Assembly (NCBI RefSeq): GCF_032854445.1
Contig: NC_088305.1
Span: forward strand, 17,347,717 to 17,411,716
From: Liolophura sinensis
Taxonomy: Eukaryota; Mollusca; Polyplacophora; Chitonida; Chitonidae
Direction of reading: 5' to 3'
Length of the DNA: 64,000 nt
In this document: piece after piece, positions 7,784 to 53,980 of the stretch
Position numbering within the stretch: position 1 is the stretch's first letter
Layout: every line of letters starts with the position of its first letter
The notes under the pieces: generated by a model
Told to the model about the DNA's origin: nothing
Database searches by the model: none
What the model saw: the letters and a program-made list of their open reading frames with translations, nothing else
Position numbers and translations under genes: made by a program

Positions 7784-7855
7784 TAACGTTACACGGTCGT
7801 GATCTGTACCTTCCTGCTATCACATTACACCGTCGTGATCTATAGGTTCCTGCAT
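7784..7855. repeat. Two 36-bp direct copies at the LPMO-1 stop codon
   Basis: The string GTCGTGATCT recurs 36 bp apart (starting at 7796 and 7832) inside imperfect copies that span the stop codon and the first bases of the 3'UTR. This is a local tandem duplication; only one copy is coding. Confidence 0.7.
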
Positions 7856-8162
7856 GCGTCATTGCAGAACAAAGGTGAACAGAACGGGCAGTTATCTCGG
7901 CACCATTGATGCATGCCATTTACGTTAGCCCATAAACCCACAGCCAAGCAGTTACCACCGGGGACAGGACGCATTGTTGTCGTTGTTGTGGTGGGGGTAG
8001 TATTTCTATGTGGTCTGGTACGGACTTTTCCTCCGGGCTTAGATGATGATACATGTACGTTGCCATCCGCCAAAATCTGGACATCAGCGCATGCGTAGTA
8101 TTCTTCCTGCGGTCCACATCCGATACAGCAGTCATGTGCGTCGTCACATCCCCAGTCGTTTC
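7840..8162 (-). CDS. LPMO-1 exon 4 (last)
   Basis: Acceptor AATCAG before 8162; completes a GGA glycine codon. Encodes NDWGCD, the QEEYYACADV strand, a short Thr-rich linker and one Cys-rich module, then TAG. The end of the exon is part of a 36-bp tandem duplication that continues past the stop codon. Confidence 0.88.
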
Positions 8163-9946
8163 CTGATTTCAGAATTAGACGATAAGGGATGATAACATGG
8201 TATAAAAATAATTTCATGCTTATGGATAGTTACCTTACGACTAACATACTTGAAATTAATTGTATAAGTAGTTAAAAGCCTTGCTCAGTCGGTTAGCGCG
8301 CTAGCGCATCGTAGTGACCCAGAAGCCTCTCACCAATGCGGTCGCTGTGAGTTCAAATCCAGTTCATACTGGCTTCCTCTCCGGCCGTACGTGGGAAGGT
8401 CTTCAAGCAGCCTACGGATGGTCGTGGGTTTCTCCCGGGCTCTGCCCGGTTTCCACCCACCATAATACTGACCGCCGTCGTATAAGTGAAATATTCTTGA
8501 GTACGGCGTAAAACACCAATCAAATAAATCAAGTCAAAGCCTTGTCTTAAATATGGATACCCTGTCTTTTCTGTGAATTTGGCGACTAGGAGTGTCTTTT
8601 TATCCCCGGATAAAAAGGAATCAAACAGTATGAAACAGTTTAGAATATGGAGGTACCTGCGTGGTATTTCCACTGTACGACGCACTGGGAGCAAGTCAGC
8701 CCTTTAGGCAAGACAAGGTCTATGTAAAATTGTCGTTGATCTGTTGGCACTATGGTTTTTGTTCCAGTGCCGTCCGCCTTTTGCAGAACATACTGATCCA
8801 GACAAGCTTGAGTAGCGATTTTGTTCACATCGTTGTTCGGGCAAATTTTAAACTCCATCCAACCTTTGTGATTTGCAGTCAGCTCAGCATGAACGCTGAT
8901 TGTCTCCCCTTGTGAATAGGTCCGCACTAGGATACCCCTGCCGTAACGACCACCCGCCTCGTTCGCCCGAGGTTGAGGATCTTGAAAGTTGTCCCCACAT
9001 ATTCCACACTGTCCTCGACTAACAGTTTGATGGATCTGAAAAGTGTGTGTATTCTGTTGTTCAGTAGGAGAATACGCTCAACTTATAAGACAAACTTGGC
9101 TGTATAGTATAGTTTGGATACCCAGAGGAATTTATCAACCTAGAACAACTGTCCGATAGACAAGGCCTGGATTCAAATAACTGCCCTCGAACTATTTGAT
9201 CTCTTGACTTGTTAGCGCGGTAGAGCAGCACAATAACTCAGGGGCCTGACACGAAACGTTGCTTTCAACTCATGCTGGCTTTCTCTATGGCCATACGTGG
9301 ACAAGTTTTCTCGGAAGATGCGCATGCATGTGGATTTTCCTTGGATTATGTCCGGTTTCCTCCCATCATAATTCTGTCCGTTTTAGTGAAATATTCTTAT
9401 GTGAGACGTAAAACGCCAGTCAATTAAATAAATGATATCTGCGAGGTCAAATTGTTCTCAGCATTTTACTTTGATACATTGTGCTAGAATATAAGCCTTG
9501 GGCTATTCATTGCTTTGTTCATCCACCACCCGTATATTCCCACATTTAGTAACACCCCTGGTGCTTTCTTCCATGCATTAATCTGACTTCACGCATGTGT
9601 CAACTATTTTTCAGCAAAGCGTAGGCCAGCAAAGAAAAATAGATAAATAAATCAAAGATGGAAAAGACAATAAAACACTAGTGCCCTTGATACGTACACA
9701 AGACGCAGAACGTCATCAATCTTTTGGCTTTGTAGCCTAAAAAAAACATACATCTGAAATGGATAAATTACTTACATAACGACCTCCACAGCCGAGCGAA
9801 TTGTCATTGTAATTTCGGGGTGTGCTGAACCCTACCCTCCACATGGTAGAGCGACCGGGGGGATCCCACATCCGACCATGCGCAGAACACCCACCAGACC
9901 AAATCACTACCAACATGACAACAACGATCTGGCTTGACATCGTGAT
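7840..9946 (-). CDS. AA15-type lytic polysaccharide monooxygenase (LPMO-1)
   Basis: Secreted copper enzyme that oxidatively cleaves chitin or a similar polysaccharide (family knowledge for AA15 and the chitin-binding type-4 fold). Coding exons are 9940-9776, 9035-8657 and 8162-7840 with phases 0 and 1; the product is 288 aa. Seen: signal peptide 1-20 ending CSA, then His21 (HGRMWDPPGRSTMW), the copper-binding N-terminus after cleavage. The second copper His is probably H111 in TANHKGWMEF (mature position 91). The QEEYYACADV segment probably carries the axial Tyr. Cys-rich pairs (CGICGDN, CSQC, CCIGCG) are typical of AA15. A Thr-rich linker leads to a C-terminal module (about 252-288) with WC..NCP and FCNDACR. 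The ATG at 9940 is chosen because a splice acceptor sits 6 nt before it, making the longer upstream reading intronic. Both introns carry SINEs. A paralogue lies on the plus strand at 43.0-50.1 kb. The substrate is inferred. Confidence 0.9.
8284..8535 (+). mobile_element. SINE-A in LPMO-1 intron, 9-bp target duplication
   Basis: AAAGCCTTG at 8275-8283 and 8536-8544. Antisense to LPMO-1, in the intron before its last exon. Confidence 0.9.
8657..9035 (-). CDS. LPMO-1 exon 3
   Basis: Acceptor TTTTCAG before 9035, donor GTACCT after 8657; 379 nt, entering in phase 0 and leaving in phase 1. Encodes IHQTVSRGQCGICGDN through QWKYHA, the core of the AA15 domain. It is exactly as long as the matching exon of LPMO-2 and very similar base by base. 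Confidence 0.9.
9205..9435 (+). mobile_element. SINE-A, degraded, in LPMO-1 intron
   Basis: TTAGCGCGGTAGAGCAGC head and GTAAAACGCCAGTCAATTAA tail, with many substitutions between; an old copy. Confidence 0.75.
9776..9946 (-). CDS. LPMO-1 exon 2 (first coding exon)
   Basis: Acceptor (ACAG) ends at 9947; ATG at 9940; donor GTAAGT follows 9776. Encodes the signal peptide, His1 and the GCGG Cys. Ends in phase 0 after 55 codons. Confidence 0.88.
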
Positions 9947-10139
9947 CTGTGGAATAAACAAGGTTTTGATCAAAGACGACGGATACCCGGGATTGTTGGT
10001 ATTTGTTGCTATATATGCATGTAGCTTTGCGATAATCCTCTGGGTCTTGGACTATTTTCGGTTGAAAACATTATTGGGTATTTCATGCATGAATTTTAAA
10101 GGCTAATTATGACTACAGACATAAAAGACTACTTCTTAC

Positions 10140-15752: not shown

Positions 15753-17211
15753 TACACTCTTCAAAAAAAAGAAACGCAAAACCCAAATATCAATGTAAAT
15801 TTGATGTTATTCAAGGACGTGTAGATCAGCGGAAAACATAGATACATGAATGAAATTTTGTTGAGCAATGCATTGCTATGTTGTCCATATTTCATGAGAA
15901 TAACAGTCACCACAGTCATTACTGCTGTCCACCAGGTGGTGTTGAGGTCAGTACCTCGGATGACCACCTCCAGCTGCTACCACTGCCAGTCACCTCCTGG
16001 GTACAGATCGAATCAGTCGTTGGATGTTTTGTTATGGAATCCTTCTCTATTCCTCCTGCAGCATGTGGAACAACTGTTGAAGATTTTGTGGTGAAATACG
16101 ACGTCGACGCACCCGTCTATCGATCTGATCCCAAAGGTGTTCGATTGGGTTTAGATCCGGGGATTTGGAGGGCCAGGGAAGAGTATTGATGTTGTTATTG
16201 GCCAGGTAGTCCACGGTGGCACGTGCTGTGTGGGGCCTGGCGTTGTTCTGTTGGAAGAGCTGCCGTTGAAGGTCAACAAGGTGAAGGACGTGCGGGTGGA
16301 GAATCTGGTCGATGTATCGATTGGCCGTCAGATTGCCTTGGACAAGCACAAGCTCCGATCTGCCGGTGTATGAGGAGCAAAACGTCCATGACGTCGTCTG
16401 TAGACACGGTTTCTACCATCACATCGCCTGAGGAGATAACGGGATTCATCGCTAAACCATATGCGCCTCCAGTTTGCCAGGTTCCATGGCAGCACCGTCG
16501 CACGCCATCTCACTCGTCGACGTCGATGTAGTTGTGTCAAGGAGGGGGCAACTTTTGGACGTTTGGCACGTATTCCTACTTCTCGGAGACGGTTCCTGAT
16601 TGCCTGGTCGGACACTCTTCGGGCTCCAAACTGTCCTTGTGCTGTGTCCCGGGCGGTAAGATGGCGGTTACGTAGGTGGGTTACCCGGATGTACCGATCT
16701 TGGGCAGGTGTGGTGACTCTAGGTCTTCCTGATCTTGGACGGTCATTTGTCAAATTTGTTTGACGAAATCGATCCCACAACCGAGTTATTGTGCTGGGAT
16801 GAACGTTAAAGAACCTCACTCTTTGATTCGCCAGCTTGCAATCGTCCAATTGCCTGATTTCGGTCGGCAGCGTTGAGACGTCCCATTTTCGTGTACATTA
16901 CTTGCAAAGATATTGGATAAAATTGTGAGATTCGTTTGGGTCTTTTATAGTCACATGCTGTACTTATGTTTTGCACGTGACAAACAATCATTGTGCCTGA
17001 ACTTCGTTCTGCACGACATCAACGCACATCATAATAATCTTAATTGATAAAACCGTTCAAAATCATTTTTGGTTGCGTTTGGTCAAGGATGATCTGAAAC
17101 ATTCCAGTAACAATGTGCAACCCTACAAAACTGCTTGAGTTAGCATATGTGTACAAAATTGTAAGTATCATTTTTGAATTTCATTTTGCGTTTCTTTTTT
17201 TGAAGGGTGCA
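15753..17211 (-). pseudogene. Tc1-like transposon with dead transposase
   Basis: Terminal inverted repeats share CTTCAAAAAAA and GAAACGCAAAA at 15757-15781 and 17187-17206, next to TA at 15751-15752 and 17212-17213. Minus-strand frames in order: MGRLNAADRNQAIGRLQAGE (HTH start), WDRFRQTNLTNDRPRSGRPR, WFSDESRY (first catalytic Asp), QQNNARPHTAR, SPDLNPIEHLWD (Glu). The second catalytic Asp reads Asn, and at least two frameshifts break the frame. About 1.46 kb, normal for Tc1 elements. Confidence 0.9.
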
Positions 17212-17389
17212 TATGAACGATTAACACTACGAACGATGAACGATCATCAACCAGAGCAAAGAGGATGATGCTAGGTATTTCACATTGTTAAAGAATTCTG
17301 ATCCGCTATGCGCTGGCACTTTAATACTGATATTCGGTATTTCATTTAAGTTTTAAGTTTTAGTTCGTGGCAACAGTTAGTGGCAACAT

Positions 17390-18420
17390 GCATATACACC
17401 TTATTTCTTAATTAATTTCATACATGCATGTACATCTTGTTTCTTGATTAATTTTAAACATGAACATCTTGTATCTTGATTAATTTGTACATCTTGTTTC
17501 TTAATTAATTTCAAACATGCATGTACATCTTGCATCTTGATTAATTTGTACATCTTGTTTCTTAATTAACTTCAAGCATACATGTACATCTTGTTTCTTG
17601 ATTAATTTCAAACATGCATGAACATCTTGTTTCTTGATTAATTTCAAGCATGCATGTACATCTTGTTTCTTGATTAATTTCAAACATGTATGAACATCTT
17701 GTTTCTTGATTAATTTCAAACATGTATGTACATTTTGTATCTTGATTAATTTGTGCATCTTGTTTCTTAATTAATTTCAAACATGCATGTACATCTTGTT
17801 TCTTGATTAATTTCAAACATGTATGTACATTTTGTATCTTGATTAATTTGTGCATCTTGTTTCTTAATTAATTTCAAACATGCATGTACATCTTGTTTCT
17901 TAATTTCATACATGCATGTACATCTTGTTTCTTATTTAATTCCAAACATGCATGTACATCTTGCATCTTGATTAGTTTGTACATCTTGTTTCTTGATTAA
18001 TTTCAAACATGCATGTACATCTTGTTTCTTAATTAATTCCAAACATGCATGTACATCTTGTTTCTAAATTAATTTCAAACATGCATGTATATCTTGTTTC
18101 TTGATTAATTTCAAACATGCATGTACATCTTGTATCTTAATTAATTTGTACATCTTGTTTCTTAATTAACTTCAAGCATACATGTACGTCTTGTTTCTTG
18201 ATTAATTTCAAACATGTATGTACATCTTGTATCTTGATTGATTTGTACATCTTGTTTCTTAACTAATTTCAAACATGCATGTACATCTTGTTTCTTAATT
18301 AATTTCATACATGCATGTACATCTTGTTTCTTAATTAATTTCAAACATGTATGTACATCTTGTTTCTTAATTAATTTCAAACATGCATGTACATCTTGTT
18401 TCTTGATTAATTTCAATAAG
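17390..18420. repeat. 36-bp minisatellite array
   Basis: About 28 units; the main unit contains AATTTCAAACATGCATGTAC and ATCTTGTTTCTTGATT (36 bp). A 25-bp variant (AATTTGTACATCTTGTTTCT plus TAATT) is interspersed. Because 36 is a multiple of three, long frames stay open (CLKLIKKQDVHA on minus, CFLINFKHACTS on plus). I treat these as by-products. Confidence 0.93.
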
Positions 18421-23562: not shown

Positions 23563-23632
23563 ATGAGTTTATCAGAGGTCATCACCCATCCCATCAGCAC
23601 GCAGAGCAGTGTGTTATCCAACCACAAATTTG
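23563..23632 (+). CDS. STING-like gene, first coding exon
   Basis: ATG at 23563 with A at -3; donor GTAAGT after 23632; 23 codons plus one base. A likely acceptor (TTCACCAG) ends at 23489, so this exon has 73 nt of leader. That leader is open in frame, so a start in an upstream exon is not excluded. A GTAACC donor at 22988 could close a 5'UTR exon. Confidence 0.7.
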
Positions 23633-26473
23633 GTAAGTAAAACGTGTCGTCTGAACTGTGAGAAGCATTGACGGGCATAATGTTACTAATAGGTGTAATG
23701 GCGTAATGTGCTCAGTGATGGTAGTGCTGGCACGTGTCAGTGTGAAGAGCAGCGGACACGGATCATCATGATCGAGGCACCAAAAAATCTGGGAAGTTTT
23801 GCTCACCTGCAGGGAAATACAAAATACTTCCCCATCGACGCTGCCCATGGGCATCATCTGAGCCCGGGGTCTGGTAATCCTGTTTTGGACAAGAAATGAT
23901 GTTCGTGTACGCTGGGATTTAAGAAAACATCTCTGTCATCGCAAATAAATTTCAATCGAATAAGATCTGAAAAACCGATTTTAAATCTAGAAGGGACTCG
24001 CTGTTCAAGTTTATATATTTTGACGCATATTTCTAGTTTGACAAAGTTTGTTTTACCTTGACGATTTTTTTTGTTTAACTTACGTACAAAACACATTATA
24101 CGTATAGTTATATTTATGTTAAGGTACAATGCCGCAAAAAAAGGTTGCTACCATGTCATTTGTTACTCATTTATGGTGGGGTTTATTTGTGTCTAACTTT
24201 TTTGGAGAAGCTTAGGCAGTTATTTAGGTGAAATTTTGTGCGCTCGTCGGCTTAAGGTTAAGTATCAATCATTAATTGTGAAGGCGATCACATTCTAGGT
24301 CAAAGAGTTTTTAAAGGATTCTTTAACAATGAATGGACGCGACAGAAATGCAGAGTATTTCTTTTGTATGTTTTGATCAAGAAAATCTGTCCAGTTTGCT
24401 GTACCTAGTGATGCACTCGGAGTGTCTTTACGTTTACTTATACGACGGCGGTCAGTTTTCTGGGTTGTAAAATCATACGGTGCGGGATAAAGCGTGGAAC
24501 TATTCGTGAGCTTTTCTAAGTGCGATGCTCAGACTTGGGCGGTATGGATGAAAAGCAAATGTTCTCTAAAACAAAACGTTAGAATCATAACGCAATAATA
24601 TATTACATATTGTTTTTATTTCTATATGTTTTTTTTTGTATTTATGTCAGAACCTGCAATCGATGAAGCAGATGCAGCAGCTCTCCTAGGACACATCGAA
24701 AAGAGGTCAGAATAACTCGGATTCATTAACATGCCTCGCACTAATTAAAAAGAACTTTTTATCCAGGTCACACCTATTCCTTCAGAAAGACTTGCTCTCT
24801 TCAGCACTGACTTCTAATTTGGAATTAACCTGCCGCTACTTCAGCTGCAGCTTTAAGTGAAAAGGATTGTAACATACTTGGCGAAGGTCGGTGATCTTCT
24901 ACAGAAACTCCTTGTTCGATGTAACTCACCAATAAAAAGTACAATGCGAAGTACACCGAAGGCGGGAGAAGGATTAACTCATCGTGTTGTTTAATGGTTC
25001 GTGTTTTTTTTGTTGGGTTTAAGGTAAAATAAATAGTCTAAGGTAGAGGCAATGTGACAAAATGCCATCATTATGCAATACAATTGTATCTTGTCCTGTT
25101 TGAACAGACCTTCTTCACAGAGCGCAAGATCCAGTTTACCTGACCTGACAGGATGGCACTGGCTTGGCTGGGACCCGAGCAACGACGAAGACACCGACAC
25201 CAATTCAGAAATCATCAGATCTCGCGATAGAATGCCTCGATGGTTCATGCGTCATGCCCGCCTGTGTGTCATCGTCACCTGTTGCCTTCTGTATCTACTA
25301 GCGATGTGTCTCTCTGTCAACTGCAACGAAACAAGCAGCCAGAGTTTCCCTGATAACGCCTCACTTAAGGCTACCAAGTCGTGTACCATGAAAGTGTGGA
25401 TACAAATCCTGCGGAGTCTAAAGTTCCCATTAATATCTATCCTCGGCGTCATTAGCATCTCTTTCGTTACCAGACTGGTGTTTTTCCTATGTGCGCTTTA
25501 CACGTGGCGGTGTCAGTTTCAACGGTCAGCCGTCGCCTCATTTGGACCTTTTACAAAACCTGCAAAACTGCTTCAAATGTTCATCATTGTCTGTCTAGTT
25601 ATCGCCATTTATACACTCTGCTCCCTAGCTTTCAACGAGGACTTGACGTTCGAATGGGCAGAAGTTTTTGCCCCTGCTGGATTAGCCACCATCATAACGG
25701 TAAGCCTAGGCATAGAAGGGGACACCGAGTTCGAGAAGAATTTCCAGCACAAGAATGAAAAAGACGGTTACGTGTATGGTCTGGCTCATGCGTACTTTCA
25801 AGATTTGCTCGAAGCCTTCCTGACACCCCGGGGTCAACGGCAGACTCTCCTGAGGGGGTGGAGCGACTACGGTCCTTCGGAAACCTTCCTCGTTCTTCTT
25901 GTAGAATGTAATCATTTTGCTGAAGAGGTATTTATGAATGAGGAGTTGGCTCAAGATGTTGAGATTGTTGACACAAAAAATGGTGTGTTTTTGCTGAGAA
26001 TTACCTTGGGGCGTAAAAATGATCGTTTTTTCTACGTTCATGTGCCCGTGTTGATCAACGAGCATCTGCTATCAGTGCACGACTGGTTCCGCTCCGATGG
26101 CCGCACCCGTCTGCCTCTAGACGAACAGAAGGCAGAGTACGAGGCTACTTTGAACAAGCTTCTACGTGACAAACGACAGGCGGTGGACGGGGCGCTGGGA
26201 AGGGTGCTTTTTTGGCGAATTCCAAATGTTTCCGTCCAGCGTATCCCTGACATTCTTCGCCGTGGCCTCTATCGTGCATTCGGAACGCCAAATTCAGATT
26301 CATTCCTAGAGAATATCTCGCAAGTTTGGGCTCAAAACACTGATAACAAGGCGATTGGGAGTCCTGAGAAGGTCCGGCGAAGAATATCTAATAGCGACAG
26401 AAGCTCAAGCAATCGTGATTCTGCTATGTCTGGGTTCAGCGGATGGTCCACGTGTTCCACTGGAACATGTTAA
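23563..26473 (+). CDS. Divergent STING homologue (stimulator of interferon genes)
   Basis: STING is an ER membrane receptor for cyclic dinucleotides that signals in innate immunity (family knowledge). Exons 23563-23632, 24651-24705 and 25108-26473 join in phases 1 and 2 to give 496 aa. Seen: an acidic cytosolic N-terminus of about 93 residues; four hydrophobic segments (about 94-112, 147-175, 196-217, 227-244), with possible N-glycosylation sites between the first two; then GYVYGLAHAYFQDLL (about 262-276), which matches the helix of human STING around GLAWSYYIGYL. Next come a hydrophobic strand FLVLLVEC, a VEIVD strand, FFYVHVPV, a helix ending EATLNKLL, and RVLFWRIPNVS, in the same order as human STING. 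The tail (about 434-496) is Ser-rich. There is no TIR domain. Several ligand-contact positions differ from human STING. Homology call is from remembered family sequence, not a search. Confidence 0.82.
24651..24705 (+). CDS. STING-like gene, 55-nt second coding exon
   Basis: Flanked by a T-rich acceptor (TTTATGTCAG) and a GTCAGA donor. It keeps the frame from the first exon into the large exon and encodes EPAIDEADAAALLGHIEK, an acidic, Ala-rich stretch. Too short to stand out as an ORF on its own. Confidence 0.7.
25108..26473 (+). CDS. STING-like gene, large third exon
   Basis: Acceptor GAACAG ends at 25107; entry in phase 2 rebuilds an AGA codon. This one exon encodes all four membrane segments, the whole ligand-binding-like domain and the tail, ending in TAA. 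Human STING spreads the same region over several exons. Confidence 0.85.
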
Positions 26474-26539
26474 GGATATAATGTAATGATCTTCATATAT
26501 GCATTCTTAATTTTTTAAGCTAATTATTTTTTGTTGGCT

Positions 26540-26735
26540 TGTAAACCTTGTGGTAAAAGATGCAATCCTTGTGGCAAGGGATATAATTCTTGTGGTAAAG
26601 AATGTAAACCTTCTGGTAAGGGATTTAAACCTTGTGATAAGGAATTTAAACCTTGTGGTAAGCGATGTAAGTCACGTGGTAAACGATGTAAGCCATGTGG
26701 TAAGCGATGTAAACCTTGTGGAAAGAGATGTAATT
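26540..26735 (+). repeat. 21-bp minisatellite just after the STING-like stop codon
   Basis: About nine copies of a 21-bp unit containing CCTTGTGGTAAG start 67 bp after the STING-like stop. Because 21 is a multiple of three, several frames stay open; one plus-strand frame reads KPCGKRC heptads. No signal peptide, splice signal or known family supports a protein. It may lie in the STING-like 3'UTR. Confidence 0.85.
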
Positions 26736-26935
26736 CAGATGGCAGCAAAACCTGTTATATTATTGTTCTGCACAACTATATAGCGCTCAACATTGATGGC
26801 TCTTTTTAAGTTGTGGAGATTTCGATATGTATCCATGTGGTGTTTTACCACCAAGTACATTCTGTTTGTTACGGACGGCTGTTTCACGAACCATTTCAAA
26901 CCGTCCATCCACCTTGGTATCTCCCCCCTCCCAAA

Positions 26936-37062: not shown

Positions 37063-39386
37063 TAGTGCGTCTTTTGGATGTTTTCAATGGTACTTACTGA
37101 GCCTTCACTAATATTGTCCCAAGCTACGTCTGCATATACTATAGATGGTCTTGTCAAACATTTGTACATAATTTCTAAGCATTTTCCACTAAGACGATAT
37201 TTAAGTGCTCTGAATATGGTCAGTCTTAAAGGCAACTTCTACAAGATTGTCTATATGAGTCTATTAGTCTCTAGTTTATATGTCTATAAGTCCGGTTCCC
37301 AGTGTTAAAAATTAATCCTAAATGCTTGTGCGATGTAACTGAGGTTATACTTTCCCTTGAAAACTGAAATAATAACTGCGAAGGTTGCCTGCGTCTTGAA
37401 ACAGTAAGTGCTATAGCCTTTGTTGCATTAAAGGCAACAAACCAAGTTTTAGCCCAAAAATCATTTTTTTCAAGGTCGTCAGTTATGGAACTGTAAACGT
37501 TTTGCTGTGACAGTTGGTGGGCTGTAACGTAAAGGCGGGTGTCATCAGGAAATAACATGATTTTATTAGTAATTTCATTTGGAAGGTCATTAATATATAC
37601 AAGGAACAATAAAGGACCCTAGACGGAGCCCTGGGGAACTACAGCTTTTAAAGTTCTAAGATTTGATTGGGAACCGTTTAAAACAAGCCTTTGCTTTCGA
37701 TTTTTTAAATAATCCTCAAACCAATTGAGTATACCGCCTTTTCTTCCAAGTGACTTTAATTTATTCAGTATACCTTTGTCCCAAACTCGATCAAAAGCCT
37801 TAGAGATATCAAAACAATGAAAAACACTTCTTTGCCGTCATCCAGGGCTTTAACGGTGTCAAAATAGAGGTCTACGAGTTGCACGGTTGTTGACTTTAAC
37901 AGTAAAAAAAAACATACTGCTTAGGAGATATTTCGGGACGCAGGTGGTTAATACTGTCCGAAAGACAACGCGTTCGAAGATTTTGCTGATGCAGCTAAGC
38001 AAAGAAATTGGTCTGTAGTTTGCGATCTTAGATGAGTTCCCCGTCTTGAATATAGGGATAACGTTGGCAAATTTCGTACTTAGCTTCTGTAGCTTTGCTC
38101 GTGTGGACAGACTCAAGTACGTCATTCAACAGTGATACCTAGTAAATTCTGGGTTAGTCTTAGGTGCAACATCAGGGCATGCTGCACTTGTGTCATTCAA
38201 GAAAATGACTTATTTGCATTATCACATGTCATTGTCTGTTAACAGAGGGGAAAATGGACTTACATTGGAGTTACTATTCTTGTACTTAGTTAAGGTTTCA
38301 CCAAAAACTTACTCCCAACATTTCTAGATTCTATTTCTCATTTAATTTGTCTTCGTGAGACCTCTTGGCATTTCTAATAAGTGAATTAAAGAGATTTCTT
38401 TGTGTTTTGTAAGCAGTAATATGGAGTTCACATGCAAATTTGCGAGATTTTTTGAAAAGTTTATTTCCAAGTTTAATTTCTGTCTTAGTCGCTGTTGATA
38501 TCAATGGCTTGTCATCAGGATTTACTGATACCGTACGATTTGGAACATTTTTGTCTAAAAGGGCATTTGTCATCAATAGGCACATTTCGTCAACCTTGTC
38601 AACTGAGATTATTTCTTCCCAGTTTACCTGAGACAAAAAGTTACGGTACCTGTTCCAATTTGCTGCATTATATTGCCAAATTCATCTTTTATATTTTTGC
38701 ATCTTTGGGATTGTTGATCTCAAAAAGACAAAGACGGGACAGTGATCACTACAAAAGTTTGATACGGTCCCAGAATTTACTAATAATCCACGCTTGTTGC
38801 ATATATAACTGGATCTAGCAGAGTGTTAGAAACAGGCCTCGTGGCTTCATCTATTAACTGAGTCATACCAAAGGTATGTGTTTTGTAAGCATAGTATATA
38901 GTATAGTAAGGTATAATAGTCGACAAATGTTTATTAGCTGGTTTCAACAGATTTTCATCCAGGTCGCCCGTCAGTATTATGTTATGATTACGGAAAGTGT
39001 CAATGACAGATTCCAGATTATCTTTAACACGTCCCACATCCCAACTTCTGATCCTGGTGATCTATAGATCACGGCAAGTACTGTGGACGGTTTTTCGAAC
39101 AATTCTAACCAAGTCATTTCCAAGTCTTTATGCTCTAAATAGCAGATATCCTCTCCGACACATAGACACATACTCCACCCCAAGCTTGGTCACGATCACG
39201 TCTAAGAGGCTCGTGAAATCAAGGCATTAAAAGAGAACTACTTGGGATATGGGAAGTGAGATGGGTCTCGGTTAAAGCTATGACATGAAAGTCGGAGAGA
39301 TTAGCAAAAACTAAGTCTAACTTATGTTTGAGTCCGCATACATCAAGATGTACGATTGATAGAGTAGTAAAGCATGGTGTTTTGGG

Positions 39387-39413
39387 CGGGCCAGGATTTA
39401 CTTCAACATGACC
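39387..39413 (-). other. 2A-like motif GHVEVNPGP in the LINE ORF
   Basis: Matches the 2A core D-V/I-E-x-N-P-G-P except that the first Asp is His. It follows a hydrophobic stretch (FMLCYFLMKIALLL) and precedes the endonuclease, the place where 2A motifs are reported in APE-type non-LTR retrotransposons. The Asp-to-His change probably abolishes ribosome skipping (inference). Confidence 0.7.
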
Positions 39414-40605
39414 ACAAAGTAATAATGCAATTTTCATCAAGAAATAGCAAAGCATGAAACTGTATGCGGTAATTTTGTGTGGTCTTATAATGTGTACATT
39501 CGGTATTGAGAACAGTTTCATATATTTTACAAGCAAGTATACAGGCAGTGTATTAAAGAGAGGAGAGAATCTTACAGGTCTCAGAAGGACGCGCCCGAAG
39601 AGACCAATTACCGCATGGTGCTGCGTGAATTCACTACCCATTGTCATTGTGTTCCGGCAAGTTAAAAGTATATGCAGGCAGTATCAGATTTATTACGGCT
39701 AAGTCCTCACTAAAGAATATAATTAACAATATTTCAGGATTGTTCAAACATATCAACAAAACTAAACCAAGGAGGTTGACAAACTCCATAGCTGATATAA
39801 AATCAAAAAAATGAAAAATTTCTCTTAAATGTAATATGTACAAAAGTGCAAGGAACAGTTGTACAGTATGTGAGGAACATTTAGACAGCACACAAAGGTG
39901 TAGTTTTGTGATCAAAATTAATATATAATAAATACTTAAGAATGCAGTCAAATTGAAATCTATGTACGGGGACATCGTAATAGTCTTTAAAACAAATAAA
40001 TAAAATGCATAAGAAAGATGAATAAATAAGTAGTAAAAACATATGCTTTTCTTGTAAACGGGTATGTTTATAGTAAATATAAAACAGGGCGAACTTAAAG
40101 TTAAACCCAATTATGTACATTTATATATAAGATACAGTGTACATTTGAGGATTTTTCCAAAAAAAAGTAGGTTTTTTATATAAAATTATAGGTATCAGAA
40201 TATTTTGCCTGTATAAACGTATATAGCACTGACATTTTCATACTAACTGTTACCGGTTATACTTCATTACTTCAGTTCTTATGATTTGTCGACAGACTTT
40301 GGAGAATATGACTTCATGAATGGTCGAAACATTTATGCATGCAGTCCAAAGGTCCTGTATGAATAGGGTTCTGGGAGTTGCGCGTCTTGCGTTTTGGTGG
40401 TTGAGGACAGTAAAAGGTTTCTCGAGTACGAAAAGTCCATGCTGTACTTGATGTCCATGCTTTACGAACTTGACCAATACTAGCACAAAACTGCTGACTA
40501 TGGTCCCAGCCTGTATTATATAACTATTCCATGAGAGCTTTACCCCTTAGGTTGAATGCTAAGGCATAATACGTAGGCTGAGTCACCTATACTGGCATGA
40601 ATCAA

Positions 40606-42850: not shown

Positions 42851-43028
42851 TAGGTAAGTTGACATTGTATGTGAAAGCAGTAAAGAATGAATGCAATATG
42901 TACAGTATATCCATACGTTACGTGCACATGTCAAATGTGTCAGTATTCTATGACACATTACTAATTTGGCCACACATTATCCTGTATTGGTGTGTTCTGT
43001 TTTTTTTTTTGTTTTTTTTTGTTAACAG

Positions 43029-43195
43029 ATACAATGTCTACGGTTGTTATTGCCGCATTGGTCCTATTATATTTTGACGTGTGCAGTGCGCATGGTCGGA
43101 TGTGGGATCCTCCTGGTCGCTCTACGATGTGGAGATTAGGGTATGACACACCCAGTAATTACAATGACATGGAAAACTTCTGCGGAGGTTTCTTT
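43029..43195 (+). CDS. LPMO-2 first coding exon
   Basis: T-rich acceptor ending TTAACAG at 43028, ATG at 43034, donor GTAAGT after 43195. Encodes 54 aa: signal peptide, His1 and FCGGFF. A candidate donor GTAAGT at 42854 could close the upstream untranslated exon. Confidence 0.88.
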
Positions 43196-46100
43196 GTAAG
43201 TACACTTAACTTGATTTCTTGAGTTGGAATTTATGCGTGGAAACAGGTATTCGCGCATCAGCCGTCAGTCAATAAGTACGTTCCAAGTCAATAATCGCAA
43301 GGCCAATTCTCATAACGGCGTATCACACAAAGCACCAAGGAACTGAGAAAGTACATGAAGTACGAAAACAGGATGGAATCATGTAAAGAAAAGCAATCGA
43401 CAGTATTCAATTATGTCGGACAGACAAAGGATATATTACAGACGACTGATTGACAGCCTTTGTGATATATAGATTGTTTAATACCGGTTTCCCTCGAACT
43501 CTCCCCCGTTTCAGTCCACCATAATGCTGGCCGCCGCATGAGTGAAACACTCTTGAGTGAGTGCTTGGGGTTTAAAGTCGTACTCAACAATTTTTCAGTC
43601 ATATGACGACGAAGGAATCCTTAGGGTGCATGTACGTGTAATGTGCCTCCTTGTTGCAGGATGGATTTCCATCCGCTCTTTTATTTAGTGGTGCTTCACT
43701 GAGACGACTTACCGAAGGCCCCACCCGAGCCATTATACTGATACGGGTCAACCAGTCGTTGAACTATCCCCTTCATGCTGAAGGCCAAGCGAGGAAGTTA
43801 CAACTTCCTCTTTTAAAGTCTTGTGACTCGATCAAGGATTGATCCTGGATCTACCGGTCCCGAAGCGGACGCTCTACCAACTGTGCTATCCGGGCCGGTG
43901 AAACACTCTTGAGTATGGCGTAAAACATCAATAGAATCAAATCATCAATATACCGTTCAGTGAATGAGAAAAATCGGTCCTGCTGAAGATTACACCTTAA
44001 TAATAGTTTCTCCACGTAGTCGTATTCACATGAGAACAGGTATAAGTCGACCAAAATTCACACGTGTAAAGCCGTAACAACTCGTTCAACTGTGGTATCG
44101 TATAGCGTGTTCCCCAGCAACTCAGCTATTTCTCATCACAAGATCAATGCGCTCGACAGAGATTCCCACTATAAGAAATATTTATCTATTATCTGGTAAT
44201 TTTATCTGTTATCTGGTGGTACTTTCTGACACATTCTCTTGTAGATTTCAATAATTTTGATTTAAACTGGAACCTGCTTTCAAAGCAGTTTCTCCGATGG
44301 AATTTGCTACGGTTATTACTGTCATATTGTTATTAAGTCATCGAACTGGATGAAAACAGTTCTTCTGGACCTATAATAATAGCATTATAACGGTGTGTAT
44401 ATATCTTTGATGAAGAAAACAGGGTTTAACTAGTTTGGCTGGGGTTTCTGTAGGAAGAATTCTTAATTAATTAACGAAGGGTGGTAGTTTATTGGAAACA
44501 TAAAACTGATATCCGTCATATGGTAAGGCGCCAAATTACGAGATATTTAAAGATTCGAAATCAAGGAATTTAAGGGTTTAATGAATGAGTATGACATTTG
44601 AATCCATAATATTGAGAAATTTAAATGTATTTAATAAATGTAGTAACTAGTAATGTTTTACTTCGAAATCTAAAAAATACGCGCGTTGCCTTGACTGAAG
44701 TCGTTTTAGTGCAGAAATTAGCATAACATTAGGTGTAGAAGGATAAAAAAAATTGGATTTGAATAAAATTGTTATATTTATTTAATTAATTATGGTATGA
44801 TGAAGAAATTTTCACTCAAGCGACGGTGGCCAAATTGATGGGTGGATGGATCCCTGTGTGCTGGGAGTAAACTTATCAATCCACAATTTTTACTTTGCAA
44901 ATTACTTTTTTGTGTTACTGTGATCTCAGTTTCTCTGACAACCTGCTGTCTATGTCATTAAAATAACAAAACACTGCATTATCTCTTAACTGTTTAATAA
45001 CAGCGGTCCAGTGGAAAGAGACAAAAAGTTAAATCTTGTCCCATTTCCAACTGAGCCACTCGTAAACTACACAACGCTTAGGTATGATAGCTTACTTTTT
45101 CAAGGGGGCCTCCGTGGCTCAGTTGGTTAGCGCGCTAGCGCAGCGTAATAACCCAGGAGTCTCTCACCAATGCGGTCGCCGTGAGTTCATGTCCAGCTCA
45201 TGCTGTCTTCCTCTCCGGCCGTACGTGGGAAGGTCTGACAGCAAGCTGCGGAGGGTCGTGGGTTTCCCCCGGGCTCTGCCCGGTTTCCTCCCACCATAAT
45301 GCTGGCGCCGTCGTATAAGGGAGATATTATTGAGTACGGCGTAAAACACCAATCAAATAAAATAAATAAATAAAATACTTTTTCAAACTTACGAAAAGCG
45401 TGATGAAACTTCTCGCAGATTCCGTTGCGGGTTTATGTCAGGGGATTGACCATGTGTCTATCAAGAAGAACCCATTTTCTCCATCCATACGCCTGAACGC
45501 CGTTATTTGAGAAAAAATTAAAATGGCATACAACAGCTGACAAACGTATGAATATACAATGAGATTACATGTAAACTGAGTATATGTTTAAACGAGTGAG
45601 TACATATATTAATATTTATCCATGACAAAATAAGCAGCACGTTCTTGTTTCAGATCCATCAAACTGTTAATGGAGGCCAGTGCGGAATATGTGGGGACAA
45701 CTTCCAAGATCCTCAGCCGAGGAAGAACGAGGCTGGTGGTCTCTATGGCAACGGCATCATCGTACAAACCTATTCACAAGGGCAGACAATCACGGCTAGG
45801 ATCGAGCTAACTGCAAATCACAAAGGTTGGATGGAGTTTAGGATTTGCCCGAACAACGATGTGAACAAAATCGCTACTCAAGCTTGTCTGGATCAGTATG
45901 TTCTGCAGAGGGCGGACGGCACGGGAACAAAAACCACGGTGCCAACAGATCAACGGGACTTCTTTATAGACATTGTCTTGCCCCCTGGACTGACGTGCTC
46001 CCAGTGTGTTGTCCAGTGGAAATACCACGCAGGTATATGATATCATTTCTTTTAATGGTTTTAGCAATGTTCGTGAAACTTTTTTTTTTTACTCATACGA

Positions 46101-49100
46101 CAGTGGTTTGATGACGGGAGAAACTGGATTGTCGAGCTCTGTTCCAGCTTCGAACTGATGGCTAAAATCGGCTACGATCCTTTAGTTCAATGAGAAGAAA
46201 GCTAGCGATATGGAAAGTTAAAACCAACTGGATAATGTTTTTGCCTAATATTTGTTTGCTTTAAGACGGTATAAAAACATTAAAATGCACAAAATAGATA
46301 CGAGGGTCAAACACGAGGGCCCAATATAACATGTTTAGAATGACATACAAATACCCAGGGAGACAAAAGTTGAAGACGAAAAAGATAGGAACATAAAATT
46401 ATTGTACCTCACTTTTACCACGATGGTCAGCATTATTGTGGGGCCGAACCCGGAGGAAACCCACGACCGTCCGCAGGTTGTTGCAAGACCTTCCCACGTG
46501 TGAGCGGAGAGTTCCTTAACTGGATGCCCCGAAAGGACCAATCTGGCGAAGGAGTTCTCAGCCTTATCCGTCTTGAGCGAGATGATCAGACCACATTTTG
46601 CTAGTGGAGTAGTGTGGGCATGGGTACGAAATGGATTTCCGGCCGTACGTGAGGTCTGTCATCAGCCTGTGGATGGTCGTGGGTTTTCCCCGGGCTGTGC
46701 CCCGGTTTCCACCCACCGTAATGCTGGCCGCCGTCGTATAAGTGAAATACTCCTGAGTACTGCATAAAACACCGATCGAATAAACAAATTAATACATCAT
46801 GGATTTGAAAGTTTGTACCCTGGCAATATACTAGGGAACTACAAAGCCCACCTTCATGTATTTGAAACTTGGTAGCAAAATTTCGCATTCTTCATGTTTT
46901 CGAAATTAATTTTTTCTGCGCCATTAATTTGCTACTATGTGCAATTACAGTGAATTTTGTTTTGTCAGTCGCCTATATTCAGCTGTCTATAAAATCAGTC
47001 ATACTGGCCACCAAAAGCCTATTGCCATTGTAGTCGCTGCGAATTCATGTCAAGCTGATGCCGGCTTTCTCTCCGATCGTATGTGGGAAGGTCTGCCAGC
47101 ATCCTGCCTGTATGGTTTCCTCTGACCATCTTGCTGACGGCATTCGTATCAGTAAAGTGCACTTAAGTAGAGTTTAAAATCTAGTGAATAATAAAATCAT
47201 AAAAGCTTTAACAGCGAATCTTTGTTCAATTGTTTGACAGCTTGGCTGTTATGAATAAGATAAAACTTATAATTATATTTATTGTCTATATTTATATTCT
47301 TTTATAACTTCCATTTGTTTGGAATTGTTATGGTACCATTCTCATTTGGAAAGCCTGAACTTTTTCGTTGTAGTAATGTTTTCTGAGGCTGTTCAGGATT
47401 GTGCAATTTGTTGTTTCCTTTATCGTATTTCACGTTTTGTTCACTATCACTGTATCACATGACGTAATCGGTTGTTTCCTTTATCGTATTTCACATTCCG
47501 TTCACTATCACGGTATCACATGATGTAATCCGCTCATTCCTTTATCGTATTTCACATTCCGTTGACTATAACGGTATCGCAAGGCGTAATCCTTTCCTTT
47601 ATCGTATTTCACATTCCGTTTACTATCATGGTATCACATGGTGTTATCAGCTGTTTCCTTTATCGCATTTCACGTTCTGTTCACTGTCATGGTATCACAC
47701 GGTGCAATCCGCTGTATCCCTTATCGTATTTCACGTTCTGTTCACCATCATGGTATCGCATGGTGTAATCCGCTCTTTCCTTTATCGTATTTCACGTTCT
47801 GTTCACTATTACGGTATCACATGGTGTAATCCGCTGTTCCCTTTATCGTATTTCACATTCCGTTCACTATCACGCTATCACATGATGTAATCCGCTCATT
47901 CCTTTATCGTATTTCACATTCCGTTGACTATAACGGTATTGCATGGAGTAATCCTTTCCTTTATAGTATTTCACATTCCGTTCACTATCACGGTATCATA
48001 TGATGTAATCCGCTCATTCCTTTATCGTATTTCACATTCCGTTCACTATAACGGTATCACATGGCGTAATCCTTTCTTTTATCGTATTTCACGTTCCCTT
48101 TACTATCACGGTATCACATGGTGTAATCCGCTGTTTCCTTTATCGTATTTCACGTTCTGTTCACTATCACAGACTGTGTCCAGTATGGTATCACATGGTG
48201 TAATCCGCTTTTCCCTTATCGTATTTCACGCTCTGTTCACTATCATGATATCACAGGCCCTGCTCAGAGTTGTATCACATACTAATAATCATTCTTCCTT
48301 CAGCAGTTACTTCATATATTAAATGAACTGTTACAAGAGGCGGTAAAGGACATTTGGCCCATAGATAAAACGTTCTGTGTCAGTCAGGACGAAGTCGGCC
48401 TGTCAAAACTGTCAGTCATCGATACAGCTACTGATATGCTGTTCACTACACGAAGTATTGGTAAGGGTTGAGGTCATTGCGGTCATGCCTTCCTCACTAC
48501 TGACTAGATCCGCTGAAAATACCACATAAATACTTAAAATTTAATTTCACCAAAATACAGTAAATCAGCTGATTGTGCGTTCTGCGGCTATGTGTGCATA
48601 TGTAATGCAAGAACAAAGCAATATAATTAAGTTTTTTTTTAATTGCTAAGTTATTCATTACAAAAATTAGGAAAAAAAAACTGGCAAAACGAAAAAAAAA
48701 GTCTACAAAATACTAGTGGGAGATTATATACATCCTCAATTTGATCGCGTGCTAAATGAAGGTTTTATATACAAGAGGAATTCTTAACAAATGCTTATAA
48801 GTCATAGAATAAATTTTTACATTTCTATCCAGTCAAAATGCTATAATTTCACAATTGTGTGCAGAAATGGAATACATAGTTTTTGAGAGTAGGAAGCAGG
48901 TTATTCCACTAACCGAATGAAAAGACAAACTAGATGAGTAGAAAAGGCTGCCCTGTTGTTTATAGTATTATTTGTATGAACTTTAGAAAGCATGGTAAAG
49001 AATTTACGAAAATTAGTTGGGAGGAGAGATGAATGATGAAAGTATTTATGAAAGAAAAGTAGGATTTGGTAATTTTTTTAAATACAGGTCATGTATATTT

Positions 49101-50066
49101 GCGTCAATGTGTCCGGATTCTGTGGCTCAGTTGGTTAGCGAGCTAGTACAGCGTCCCAGGAGTCTCTCACCAATGCGGTCGCCGTGAGTTCAAGTCCAGC
49201 TCATACTGGCTTCCTCGCGGGTCGTACGTGGAAAGGTCTGGCAGCAACCTGAGGATGGTCGTGGGTTTCCCCAGGGCTCTGCCCGGTTTTCACCCTCCAT
49301 AATGCTGTCCGCCATCGTATAGGTGAAATATTCTTAAGCACGGCGTAAAACACCAATCTAATAAATAAATAAATTTGTGTTTGGGAAAGGAAATAACTGG
49401 GGATGCGACAACCCTCCGAATGATTGCTGTCTAGGGTGCGGGCCTCAGGAAGAATTCATGGCTTGTGCCGATGTGAGGATCTTATCGGGTGGTAATCCCA
49501 CAACAACCACATCAACACCCGGACCTACGACAACAACCACTTCAACACCCGGACCTACGACAACAACCACATCAACACCCGGACCTACGACAACAACCAC
49601 ATCAACACCCGGACCTACGACAACAACCACATCAACACCCGGACCTACGACAACAACCACATCAACACCCGGACCTACGACAACAACCACATCAACAACC
49701 ACAACAACATCAACACCCGGACCTACCACAACAACCAGCACAACACAAGCTACAACATCCACAACTACGACTGCAATATTACCAACAGTACCTGTGGGCG
49801 AATGCTTGGCTGTGGGAGTATGGGCCAGCGTGGCCAATATGCACACTTGGTGCAAGAATAACTGTCCTTCGGAATGTCCTGCCACCCACTGTAATGACGC
49901 TTGTCGACAGGTCGTTGCTGTTACAACAACAACACCGGCACCAAGCGCTCAGTGCTTGGCAGTGGGAGTATATAGCACCGTGATGGGCATGGACGCCTGG
50001 TGCAATGCTAACTGTCCCTCGGAATGTCCGACCACCCACTGTAATGACGCCTGTCGACAGCTGTAA
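43029..50066 (+). CDS. AA15-type LPMO with repeated linker and two Cys-rich modules (LPMO-2)
   Basis: Paralogue of LPMO-1. Coding exons 43034-43195, 45654-46032 and 49390-50066, phases 0 and 1, give 405 aa. Signal peptide 1-19 (ending CSA), then His20 as the mature N-terminus (HGRMWDPPGRSTMW); second copper His probably H110 (mature 91). The segment QEEFMACADV has Phe where LPMO-1 has Tyr. After the catalytic domain (to about 211) comes a Thr/Pro linker of about 100 residues built from TTTTTSTPGP decapeptides, then two copies of a module (about 318-354 and 368-405) sharing CLAVGV, WC, NCPSECP and HCNDACR. An acceptor 5 nt before the ATG implies a 5'UTR intron, as in LPMO-1. The modules may bind carbohydrate; that is inferred. 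Intron 1 (43196-45653) and intron 2 (46033-49389) are filled with SINEs, and intron 2 with a satellite. Confidence 0.9.
43236..43440 (+). repeat. Dispersed repeat family D, fullest copy, LPMO-2 intron 1
   Basis: Joins both halves: GTGGAAACAGGTATTCGCGC, CAAGTCAATAATCGCAAGGC, then GAACTGAGAAAGTACATGAA and GGATGGAATCATGTAAAG. No ORF or terminal repeat seen. Confidence 0.7.
43495..43945 (+). mobile_element. SINE-A fragment interrupted by SINE-B
   Basis: ACCATAATGCTGGCCGCCGC up to 43558 resumes at 43915 with ATGGCGTAAAACATCAATAG; the SINE-B lies between. In LPMO-2 intron 1. Confidence 0.85.
43559..43897 (-). mobile_element. SINE-B: second tRNA-derived family, 17-bp target duplication
   Basis: Minus strand begins GGCCCGGATAGCACAGTTGG (box A-like) with GTAGATCCAGGATCAATCC (box B-like), so the head comes from a different tRNA. 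It ends in CCAAGCACTCAC. GTGAAACACTCTTGAGT flanks it at 43542-43558 and 43898-43914. About 339 bp. Confidence 0.9.
44755..44870 (-). mobile_element. SINE-A 3' fragment, degraded
   Basis: TATTTATTTAATTAATTATG, CTCAAGCGACGGTGGCC and GGGTGGATGGATCCC recall the reversed tail. Confidence 0.45.
45104..45375 (+). mobile_element. SINE-A, full length, 11-bp target duplication, LPMO-2 intron 1
   Basis: TACTTTTTCAA at 45093-45103 and 45376-45386. Same strand as LPMO-2. Confidence 0.93.
45654..46032 (+). CDS. LPMO-2 second coding exon
   Basis: Acceptor GTTTCAG ends at 45653; donor GTATAT after 46032; 379 nt. Encodes IHQTVNGGQCGICGDN to QWKYHA. Much of it is identical in sequence to LPMO-1 exon 3. Confidence 0.9.
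46425..46515 (-). mobile_element. SINE-A central fragment, LPMO-2 intron 2
   Basis: GGTCAGCATTATTGTGGGGC to GACCTTCCCACGTGTGAGC on the plus strand. Confidence 0.7.
46625..46790 (+). mobile_element. SINE-A 3' part, LPMO-2 intron 2
   Basis: TTTCCGGCCGTACGTGAGG to CATAAAACACCGATCGAATA; head missing. Confidence 0.85.
47028..47185 (+). mobile_element. SINE-A, degraded, LPMO-2 intron 2
   Basis: GTCGCTGCGAATTCATGTCA and GTGGGAAGGTCTGCCAGC, then a decayed 3' end. Confidence 0.65.
47395..48265. repeat. 61-bp satellite array in LPMO-2 intron 2
   Basis: About 14 units of about 61 bp with TCCTTTATCGTATTTCAC, TTCACTATCACGGTATCAC and TGTAATCCGCT. Units differ by scattered substitutions and a few shorter copies. 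Confidence 0.93.
49110..49374 (+). mobile_element. SINE-A abutting the LPMO-2 exon 3 acceptor
   Basis: Head TGGCTCAGTTGGTTAGCGAG, tail CGGCGTAAAACACCAATC and ATAAATAAAT. Ends about 15 bp before the exon. Confidence 0.9.
49390..50066 (+). CDS. LPMO-2 third coding exon
   Basis: Acceptor GGGAAAG ends at 49389, only about 15 bp from the end of a SINE; it has no clear pyrimidine tract. Encodes NNWGCD, the QEEFMACADV strand, the repeated linker and both Cys-rich modules, then TAA. The acceptor is supported because it keeps phase with exon 2 and matches the LPMO-1 boundary. Confidence 0.85.
49500..49720 (+). repeat. 30-bp tandem repeat coding the LPMO-2 linker
   Basis: About six near-perfect 30-bp units (ACAACAACCACATCAACACC then CGGACCTACG), then a broken unit. 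Each encodes TTTTTSTPGP. The near identity implies recent expansion; the long antisense ORF here is only a by-product. Confidence 0.93.
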
Positions 50067-51995: not shown

Positions 51996-52059
51996 AGTTA
52001 CATTTAGTCATCGTAAGGTGACGCCAGGATTTGACTAAAAATACATGCATGATGATTCT

Positions 52060-52240
52060 ATGCGTGGAAACAGACATTCGTATATTGGCCGTCACCCATG
52101 CCAGATGGACCGTCCTGGTCAATAATCGCAAGCGAGACTCCAAAAGCGACGTTTAACACAACCACTAAGAAACTAAGAAAGTACACAATTAGGACGGAGT
52201 CATTCAAAGAGAAGCAGTCAACACTTCATAATGATGTTCA
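52060..52240 (+). repeat. Dispersed repeat family D, near complete
   Basis: GCGTGGAAACAGACATTCGT, CTGGTCAATAATCGCAAGC, ACTAAGAAAGTACACAATT and AAAGAGAAGCAGTCAACAC. Lies 70 bp after the previous copy, in the same direction. Confidence 0.7.
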
Positions 52241-52444
52241 AAAGATGAAATTCATTTTCAAGACGAATGAGTGAAATCAGTATTCAAATCGTGAACCGTG
52301 TTAGTATGTTAGTTATATAATAAACATACATATATAATAAATAATAAAATATGTATCTCATTCAAGGTTTTTCTGATGGCATTTTCTTCGAGAAAAGATA
52401 TTATGAACAAGTATTAACGAAGGATTATGACTTAACGCCAAAAT

Positions 52445-53320
52445 ATGCCGAAGACACCAGACATGACATAACAACCCCTGGACAACAGACATGACATCAC
52501 ACCTCCCGGACACCATACATGACATCACACTTCCTGGGCCGCACACATGACATCACAACCCCTGGACACCACACATGACATCACACTTCCTGGACAACAG
52601 ACATGACATCACACCTCCCGGACACCATGCATGACATCACACCTTCTGAGCACCACACATGACATCACAACCCCTGGACACCAGACATGACATCACACCT
52701 CCTGGGCACCACACATGACCTCATACCTCCCGGACACCATACATGACATCACACCTCCTGGACACCAGACATGACATCACACCTCCTGGGCACCACACAT
52801 GACATCACACCTCCTGGACACCACATATGACATCACACCTCCTGGGCACCACACATGACATCACACCTCCTTGGCACCACACATGACATCACACTTCCTG
52901 TGAACCACACATCACACGTCCTGAACAACAGACATGACCTCACACCTCCTGGGCACCACACATGACATCACACCTCCTGGACAACAGACATGACATCACA
53001 CTTCCTGGACACCAGACATGACACCACACCTCCTGGACAACAGACATGACATCACACCTCCCGGACACCGGACATGGCATCACACCTCCTGGACAACAGA
53101 CATGACATCACACCTCCTGGGCACCACACATGACATCACACTTCCTGGGCACCACACATGATATCACACCTCCTGAACACCAGACATGACATCACACTTC
53201 CCGGACACTATACATGACATCACACCTCCTGGACACAAGACATGACGTCACACCTAATGGACAGACATGACATCACAACCCGTGGACACCAGATATGACA
53301 TTACACCCCCTGGACACCAT
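52445..53320. repeat. 28-bp minisatellite array
   Basis: About 30 units with CATGACATCACACCTCCTGG and ACACCAGA; unit length varies slightly. No coding frame kept. Confidence 0.93.
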
Positions 53321-53414
53321 ACCAAGTTACACTATACTGACTATACGAGTCATGCAGTCTTGTTTCCGCGCTGAGCGGCAAGCGAGGCAGCAACGAGTAT
53401 CATTTCTACGGTCT

Positions 53415-53652
53415 GGTGCATGTCCTGGTGGTTAGCGTGATGCATAATTATCACAACGCAATGACGCAGAAGCCTCTAACCATTGTGAGTACAACTGCAG
53501 CCTATGTTGGCTTCCAGGTTGTAAGTGGGAAGGTCTTGCAGCAACCTGCGGATTGCCGAGAATTTTCACCCAACAAATTGCTGGCTGTCGTCGCATAAGT
53601 GAAATATTCTTATATATAACACAGCGTAACACTCCAATCGGATAAATAAATG
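53415..53652 (+). mobile_element. SINE-A, degraded
   Basis: GACGCAGAAGCCTCTAACC, GTGGGAAGGTCTTGCAGC and GTAACACTCCAATCGGATAA; follows the 28-bp array. Confidence 0.75.
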
Positions 53653-53849
53653 ACCCGACCCGGCTTTCATCCCCGGCCTCCCAACAACAGTCTAAGAGTA
53701 TGCACAGTCAGTATAGACAGTCAGTATAGACATACAGTATAGACATAAGGTAGCTGGCTTCAGCCAATTCTCAGCCTTAGAATCTTTCTGAAAATGTGTA
53801 AATGCCACAATAACGAGAATACTGTGATCAGTAAGTCGCTTCCAAGTTT

Positions 53850-53980
53850 GACTGAGTGAGTGAGTGCTTGGAGTTTAACGTCGTACTTTTTTCCGTCACA
53901 TGACGACGAAGGAATCCTTAGAGTGCATGTTATTTGCCTCTTTGTTGCATGACGAATTTTAACCGCTCTTTTATCTTCAA
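53850..53980 (-). mobile_element. SINE-B 3' part
   Basis: GAGTGAGTGCTTGGAGTTTA and GACGACGAAGGAATCCTTAG match the 43559 element in the same orientation; the head is missing. Confidence 0.8.

Follow-up and report, generated by a model that had tools for sequence, protein, structure and literature searches.

A membrane protein of the chiton Liolophura sinensis that may be a strongly diverged STING

STING is a protein of the endoplasmic reticulum (ER) membrane with four membrane helices and both ends in the cytosol. Its connector and the first helix of its soluble domain form the dimer and pass on the rotation of that dimer. Animal STING (TMEM173) is described by two Pfam models, PF23417 and PF15009. 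According to one study, most animal genomes (88%) encode one STING and some, such as those of a coral and an oyster, encode 3-10; every known bacterial and metazoan STING is described there as having two stacking aromatic residues and a lid arginine (PMC9980059). Four-helix STINGs have been reported across eukaryotes from a search seeded with PF15009 sequences, and in that report the majority of the bacteria-like eukaryotic STINGs (blSTING, PF20300) are predicted to carry four N-terminal helices before the STING domain (PMC10732462). For Monosiga, 19.1% identity to human STING is given together with conservation of the putative binding residues, and the C-terminal tail of STING is said to be a vertebrate innovation, both in a single source (PMC8592570).

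The nearest described relatives by host are perhaps the molluscan STINGs, namely oyster TIR-STING (PDB 6wt6 and 6wt7) and the protein of Mytilus coruscus, for which c-di-GMP binding with a KD of 42.7 uM has been reported (PMC11190208). An in-silico survey lists Aplysia as being without STING and refers to earlier work in which heterobranchs lack it (PMC9334734). Within a partial survey of the literature, which is weak evidence of absence, no account was found of a STING-like protein missed by family models.

The window analyzed here is a stretch of 64,000 nucleotides from the chiton Liolophura sinensis (contig NC_088305.1). It contains an intact open reading frame of 471 codons at 25058-26473 on the forward strand. 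Simulation of 30 sequences of 64 kb with the dinucleotide make-up of the window gave stop-free frames of at most 193 codons, and the frame is therefore a coding exon. The positional composition is typical of a coding frame (GC1 0.50, GC2 0.42, GC3 0.52). Residues are numbered below according to this 471-codon frame (P0001), and the main exon corresponds to its residues 18-471 plus the stop codon. The putative coding segments are as follows.

23563..23632, forward strand: putative coding exon 1; ATG at 23563, donor gtaagt found by the site scan
24651..24705, forward strand: putative coding exon 2; the acceptor passes the site scan, the GT donor is weak and absent from the scan list, the phase fits
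25108..26473, forward strand: main exon with membrane helices and soluble domain; frame open from 25058, acceptor AG below the scan cut-off

These segments join in phase into a protein of 496 amino acids with a single terminal stop. The resulting three-exon, 496-residue gene model, drawn from sequence and phase, is tentative, as are its exon bounds. Of the four splice sites, two pass the crude site scan (donor after 23632, acceptor before 24651) and two lie under its cut-offs (donor at 24705, acceptor before 25108). Position 25108, with which the initial annotation had begun the feature, is preceded by an AG (ctgtttgaacag) and gives a phase-consistent join; this start is kept here with the reservation that its acceptor scores below the cut-off. 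The true start of the protein is not fixed, since the same frame is already open for at least 30 codons ahead of the ATG at 23563. The scan also marked a donor-like site inside the main exon, at 25700.

Several other origins of the gene were considered. A degenerating STING gene copy would account for the extreme divergence described below. It is nevertheless regarded as very improbable, as the stop-free length is far above the simulated maximum, the composition is that of a coding frame, and the putative introns are phase-consistent. A second copy in the window was rejected, as tblastn returned elsewhere only matches of E 2 or worse. Prokaryotic contamination was rejected because putative introns are present and neither six 8-residue patterns nor tblastn revealed a relative in prokaryotic contigs, and a viral gene because 8-residue patterns and tblastn revealed none in viral contigs, the reach of both scans being limited to close relatives.

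The frame shows four separate Kyte-Doolittle membrane peaks ahead of a soluble domain, and four are also found at a stricter threshold. The layout of the protein, with P0001 residues in brackets, is the following.

25262..25318, forward strand (69-87): membrane helix 1, Kyte-Doolittle peak 2.67
25439..25495, forward strand (128-146): membrane helix 2, Kyte-Doolittle peak 2.26; a listed segment, 136-154, overlaps it
25577..25633, forward strand (174-192): membrane helix 3, Kyte-Doolittle peak 2.69
25658..25714, forward strand (201-219): membrane helix 4, Kyte-Doolittle peak 1.65; lies within a 76-residue BLASTP match to human STING
25715..25777, forward strand (220-240): connector of about 20 residues, of human STING length, from the ungapped alignment between LG..G and GLA
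25778..25822, forward strand (241-255): first soluble helix (alpha1), GLAHAYFQDLLEAFL, placed by 9/9 MAFFT runs and by the motif and spacing test
25823..26332, forward strand (256-425): remaining soluble domain, from crude propensities; profile scores at chance level
26333..26470, forward strand: Ser/Arg-rich C-terminal tail, from the motif check

P0001 resembles animal STING in its four N-terminal membrane helices, in the length of its connector, and in the G-L-A-x-x-Y-[YF] helix that opens a soluble domain some 190 residues long. From LG..G to GLA, it aligns with human STING without a gap and with 10 identities in 39 positions. It differs from animal STING in its longer N-terminus and longer loop between helices 1 and 2, in the replacement of Ser162, Gly166, and Tyr167, and in the lack of measurable similarity after alpha1. 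The order of helices and strands in the soluble domain appears STING-like by eye when judged by crude propensities, which are a poor guide, as they call much of human STING alpha1 strand. Of the four N-X-S/T sites, two (90 and 100) fall in the loop between helices 1 and 2, which is lumenal in STING, and two in the soluble domain. Unlike that of vertebrate STING, the tail carries no TBK1 or IRF3 motif: P.P[LI]R and L.IS are both absent from the frame.

The initial annotation had proposed a STING homologue, a proposal to which the family models lend no support. With the whole frame, its membrane half, its soluble domain, and the membrane plus soluble part as queries, neither PF15009 (STING_LBD) nor PF23417 (STING_TM) is listed at E<=10, and neither gives a significant match, whereas the positive controls scored well: 250 bits for human, 205 for Drosophila (7mwy), and 207 for Nematostella STING with PF15009, and 140 for human and 117 for chicken STING with PF23417. 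The same queries likewise fail to bring up the prokaryotic model PF20300 (prok_STING), to which blSTING belongs, at E<=10. Weaker Pfam matches could be hidden, since HMMER filters discard most of those above E ~0.1. An ordinary STING was rejected on the silence of PF15009 and PF23417; if P0001 is a STING, it must lie much farther out than the fly and anemone proteins, which exceed 200 bits. Oyster TIR-STING is far less diverged, because a plain fly STING query matches the oyster chain (E 4.9e-06). The oyster protein is a TIR fusion, while Pfam lists no TIR domain in the P0001 frame. In phmmer searches of the PDB, chance matches only were obtained whether the query was the frame or the soluble part, PADLOC-DB listed 0 families at E<=10, NCBIfam gave no meaningful match, and Rfam and tRNA scans returned nothing.

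Direct comparison with individual STINGs gives a different picture for the region that ends with alpha1. BLASTP aligns 76 residues, P0001 180-255 with human STING 99-172, at 26% identity (single-pair E 0.002; 0.004 with composition correction), and phmmer without filters finds the same stretch against human STING at E 0.001 for one target. Chicken STING 131-177 is matched by P0001 209-255 (E 0.022). Against six STINGs given as the soluble domain only, the best E values range from 0.27 to 4.8, and some of the alignments are off register. Ungapped matches to human STING of 39 and 60 residues are rarely equalled by shuffles (fractions of 0.013 and 0/300, respectively); at 25 residues, the best ungapped match is equalled by about half of the shuffles (fraction 0.52).

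A profile was built from eight STINGs (human, chicken, mouse, 9wh7, Nematostella, 8efn, 8gjz, and 7mwy), of which only the human and chicken proteins contribute the membrane part. Scores were set against 2000 shuffles of P0001 in blocks of 15 residues and against 252 control open frames, each 200 residues or longer and truncated at 900, that were picked mechanically from eight stretches of E. coli K-12; among these controls, 59 have at least three membrane peaks. With scoring schemes that were designed after the resemblance had been noticed, several of which were tried, and with bacterial controls, the whole-length local score was 39.7 (z 4.53), a value reached in 3/2000 shuffles and in 0/252 controls. 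End-to-end alignment gave z 3.97 (0/2000 shuffles, 1/252 controls). Structure-aware gaps, which are favored outside secondary structure and for which the structure bounds and the gap costs are our own choice, gave z 4.87, with no shuffle and no control as high (0/2000 and 0/252). For the region from TM2 to alpha1 alone (human 45-186), z was 4.06; 2/2000 shuffles scored as high, as did 1/252 controls by raw score and 0/252 by z.

The soluble domain behaves differently depending on whether alpha1 is included. With alpha1 and flat gaps, z is 1.41, and controls score as high in 33/252 cases by raw score and 26/252 by z; with structure-aware gaps, z rises to 3.28 (2/252 and 5/252, respectively). 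Without alpha1, the domain falls to chance level, with z -0.94 (flat) and 0.74 (structure-aware), and its raw score is equalled by 170/252 and 42/252 controls, respectively. Earlier rounds with 133 controls gave, for the whole length, 0/133 locally, 0/133 with structure-aware gaps, and, end-to-end, 2/133 by z and 0/133 by raw score. For the soluble domain, 5 to 11/133 controls scored as high, and 1/133 by raw score and 2/133 by z in the structure-aware scheme. As the structure-aware alignment of these rounds misplaces the C-terminal half, only its total score was used and no residue pairs were taken from it.

The start of alpha1 can also be recognized by a motif. G[LMF]A..Y[YFH] is present in all eight STINGs and in P0001, and the bare motif occurs twice in 104,868 control residues. 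When a membrane helix 25-38 residues before it is demanded, the combination is found in P0001, in human and chicken STING (the sole STINGs given with their membrane part), and in 0/252 controls.

The same data must be weighed against an unrelated four-helix membrane protein, whose likeness to STING would come from chance membrane helices and one short helix motif. This is the main rival reading, judged the less likely of the two. It agrees with the failure of Pfam, PADLOC, and NCBIfam to list P0001 as a STING, with the lack of sequence signal in the soluble domain past alpha1, and with the tendency of hydrophobic stretches to inflate scores. Generic comparisons are also at or near chance. Two HMMs built from the eight STINGs, in which the membrane-part columns dropped out, gave P0001 -1.7 and -1.8 bits, values that 433/2000 and 506/2000 shuffles equalled; hhalign located the same helix, though at P 0.11 and 0.18; and pairwise alignment with the human soluble domain alone gave z from -0.9 to 1.65. 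On the other hand, shuffles that preserve the composition of each 15-residue block seldom or never reproduce the profile scores, either over the whole length or from TM2 to alpha1. Among the 59 controls with at least three membrane peaks, none attains the whole-length scores and one attains the raw TM2-alpha1 score. Chance helices would also have to bring with them the combination of motif and spacing, which is absent from every control. Weighing these comparisons, we consider STING homology reasonably likely, the evidence for it being fair and not conclusive. The original proposal is thus retained as far as the four membrane helices, the connector length, the motif with its spacing, and the TM2-alpha1 score are concerned, against the silence of both Pfam STING models.

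GLAHAYFQDLL in P0001 aligns to human GLAWSYYIGYL, and in 9/9 MAFFT runs Ser162 is paired with Ala245, Tyr163 with Tyr246, Gly166 with Asp249, and Tyr167 with Leu250. Two replacements named in the initial annotation, Ser162 by Ala and Tyr167 by Leu, are therefore upheld if P0001 is a STING, as they recur in all nine runs and lie within the region that aligns above chance. Its further pairing of the human EYATP strand with a VHVPV-like strand finds no support, because the soluble domain past alpha1 scores at chance, and changes of Glu260, Thr263, and Pro264 cannot be claimed in a region that does not align above chance. In that region, MAFFT pairs Glu260 with His328 in 9/9 runs, one residue off the pairing first suggested, Thr263 with Val331 in 8/9 and Val329 in 1/9, and Pro264 with Leu332, His336, or Pro330 in 5, 3, and 1 of 9. 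The lid residues Arg238 and Tyr240, equally within the stretch not alignable above chance, face a gap in 7/9 runs and Val304 and Thr306 in 2/9. Residue pairings past alpha1 carry no weight, since scores there match those of shuffles. Lid residues without a partner in seven of nine runs may reflect a lost or short lid, or merely a failed alignment.

Coral STINGs offer a useful comparison. Sp-STING3 has Asn at the Ser162 position, where P0001 has Ala, and Sp-STING1 and Sp-STING3 both show a changed ligand preference while keeping both aromatics and the lid arginine, whereas the first aromatic is Leu in P0001 (PMC9980059). Since this position is described there as an otherwise universal aromatic (PMC9980059), the leucine is, of all the observations, the one that hints most strongly at a loss of canonical binding. 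It could be argued instead that P0001 is a STING in which cyclic dinucleotide binding persists, the roles of Tyr167, Arg238, and Glu260 having passed to different residues, and that the apparent loss of the pocket is an alignment failure. The lid and pocket residues past alpha1 cannot be placed, so their loss is not demonstrated, and the coral proteins are reported to have shifted ligand preference through pocket substitutions (PMC9980059). This explanation is considered improbable, because the Tyr167 position is Leu in every run, within the sole region above chance, and every known STING is described as having an aromatic there (PMC9980059).

The reading favored here, with moderate confidence and on the basis of sequence comparison, is that P0001 is a strongly diverged membrane protein of the STING family that lacks the base-stacking tyrosine and for which canonical cyclic dinucleotide binding is unlikely. 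The membrane frame, the connector, and the first soluble helix would have been kept as in STING; we therefore infer that the protein probably forms a dimer in the ER membrane, as STING does. Tyr167 (replaced by Leu), Gly166, and Ser162 would have been lost, so that canonical binding of cyclic dinucleotides is most likely gone. The soluble domain would have been rebuilt, with no nucleobase stacked on Tyr167, and the protein may function in the membrane as a dimeric adaptor that senses another ligand or none. Alternatively, it could serve as a partner or a brake of an ordinary STING.

If P0001 is a STING, it would lie far beyond the range of present family models and lack an aromatic that is described for all known STINGs (PMC9980059). 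It would also indicate that the membrane frame can persist while the pocket is rebuilt. Loss claims based on sequence searches, such as those for Aplysia and other heterobranchs in the survey cited above (PMC9334734), may then be detection failures. A broader possibility, which we consider unlikely, is a cryptic STING family invisible to current models, with the same membrane frame and a rebuilt pocket for another ligand or none; if such a family exists, published losses of STING, such as those in heterobranch gastropods, could in part be failures of detection. Should P0001 prove not to be a STING, it would plainly illustrate how likeness among membrane proteins can mislead the eye.

The surroundings of the gene contain further genes and numerous repeats. 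The putative introns, two lytic polysaccharide mono-oxygenase (LPMO_10) genes, and a dispersed element, described below, point to an animal genome, probably that of a mollusc. A tandem array of a 21-bp unit (26540-26733, 9.2 copies) starts 67 bases past the stop codon; as 21 is a multiple of 3, the frame 26519-26809 stays open and would read as a repeated KPCGKRC-like peptide. Two LPMO_10 genes in opposite orientation flank the locus, at 7843-10051 on the reverse strand and 42965-50063 on the forward strand, with domain matches at 8643-9077 (E 2.3e-12) and 45600-46037 (E 2.1e-13). By eye, exons such as CSAHGRMWDPPGRSTMWR are common to both, and in the second a Thr/Pro linker may be encoded by 30-bp repeats (49500-49697, 6.6 copies, 98% match). 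Exons of a BTB-BACK gene lie at 55256-58297 on the reverse strand (BACK, E 7.1e-07; BTB, E 0.0024, below its cut-off). Three long minisatellites are present at 17385-18416, 47414-48170, and 52453-53319, with units of 36/97, 61/118, and 28 bp, respectively, the last of them lying where the GC skew is strong (-0.24 at 52001-54000).

Traces of mobile elements are also found in the window. A transposase fragment lies at 16331-16897 on the reverse strand (HTH_Tnp_Tc3_2, E 1.1e-06, below its cut-off), and the frames at 3-739 and 37274-39683 look by eye like pieces of non-LTR retrotransposon reverse transcriptase/endonuclease. A dispersed SINE-like element occurs in 15 places, for example, at 19703, 40626, 40815, 30248, 45339, and 49343; its 16-base core, GATTGGTGTTTTACGC, is found 4 times on the forward and 11 times on the reverse strand of the window with at most 2 mismatches.
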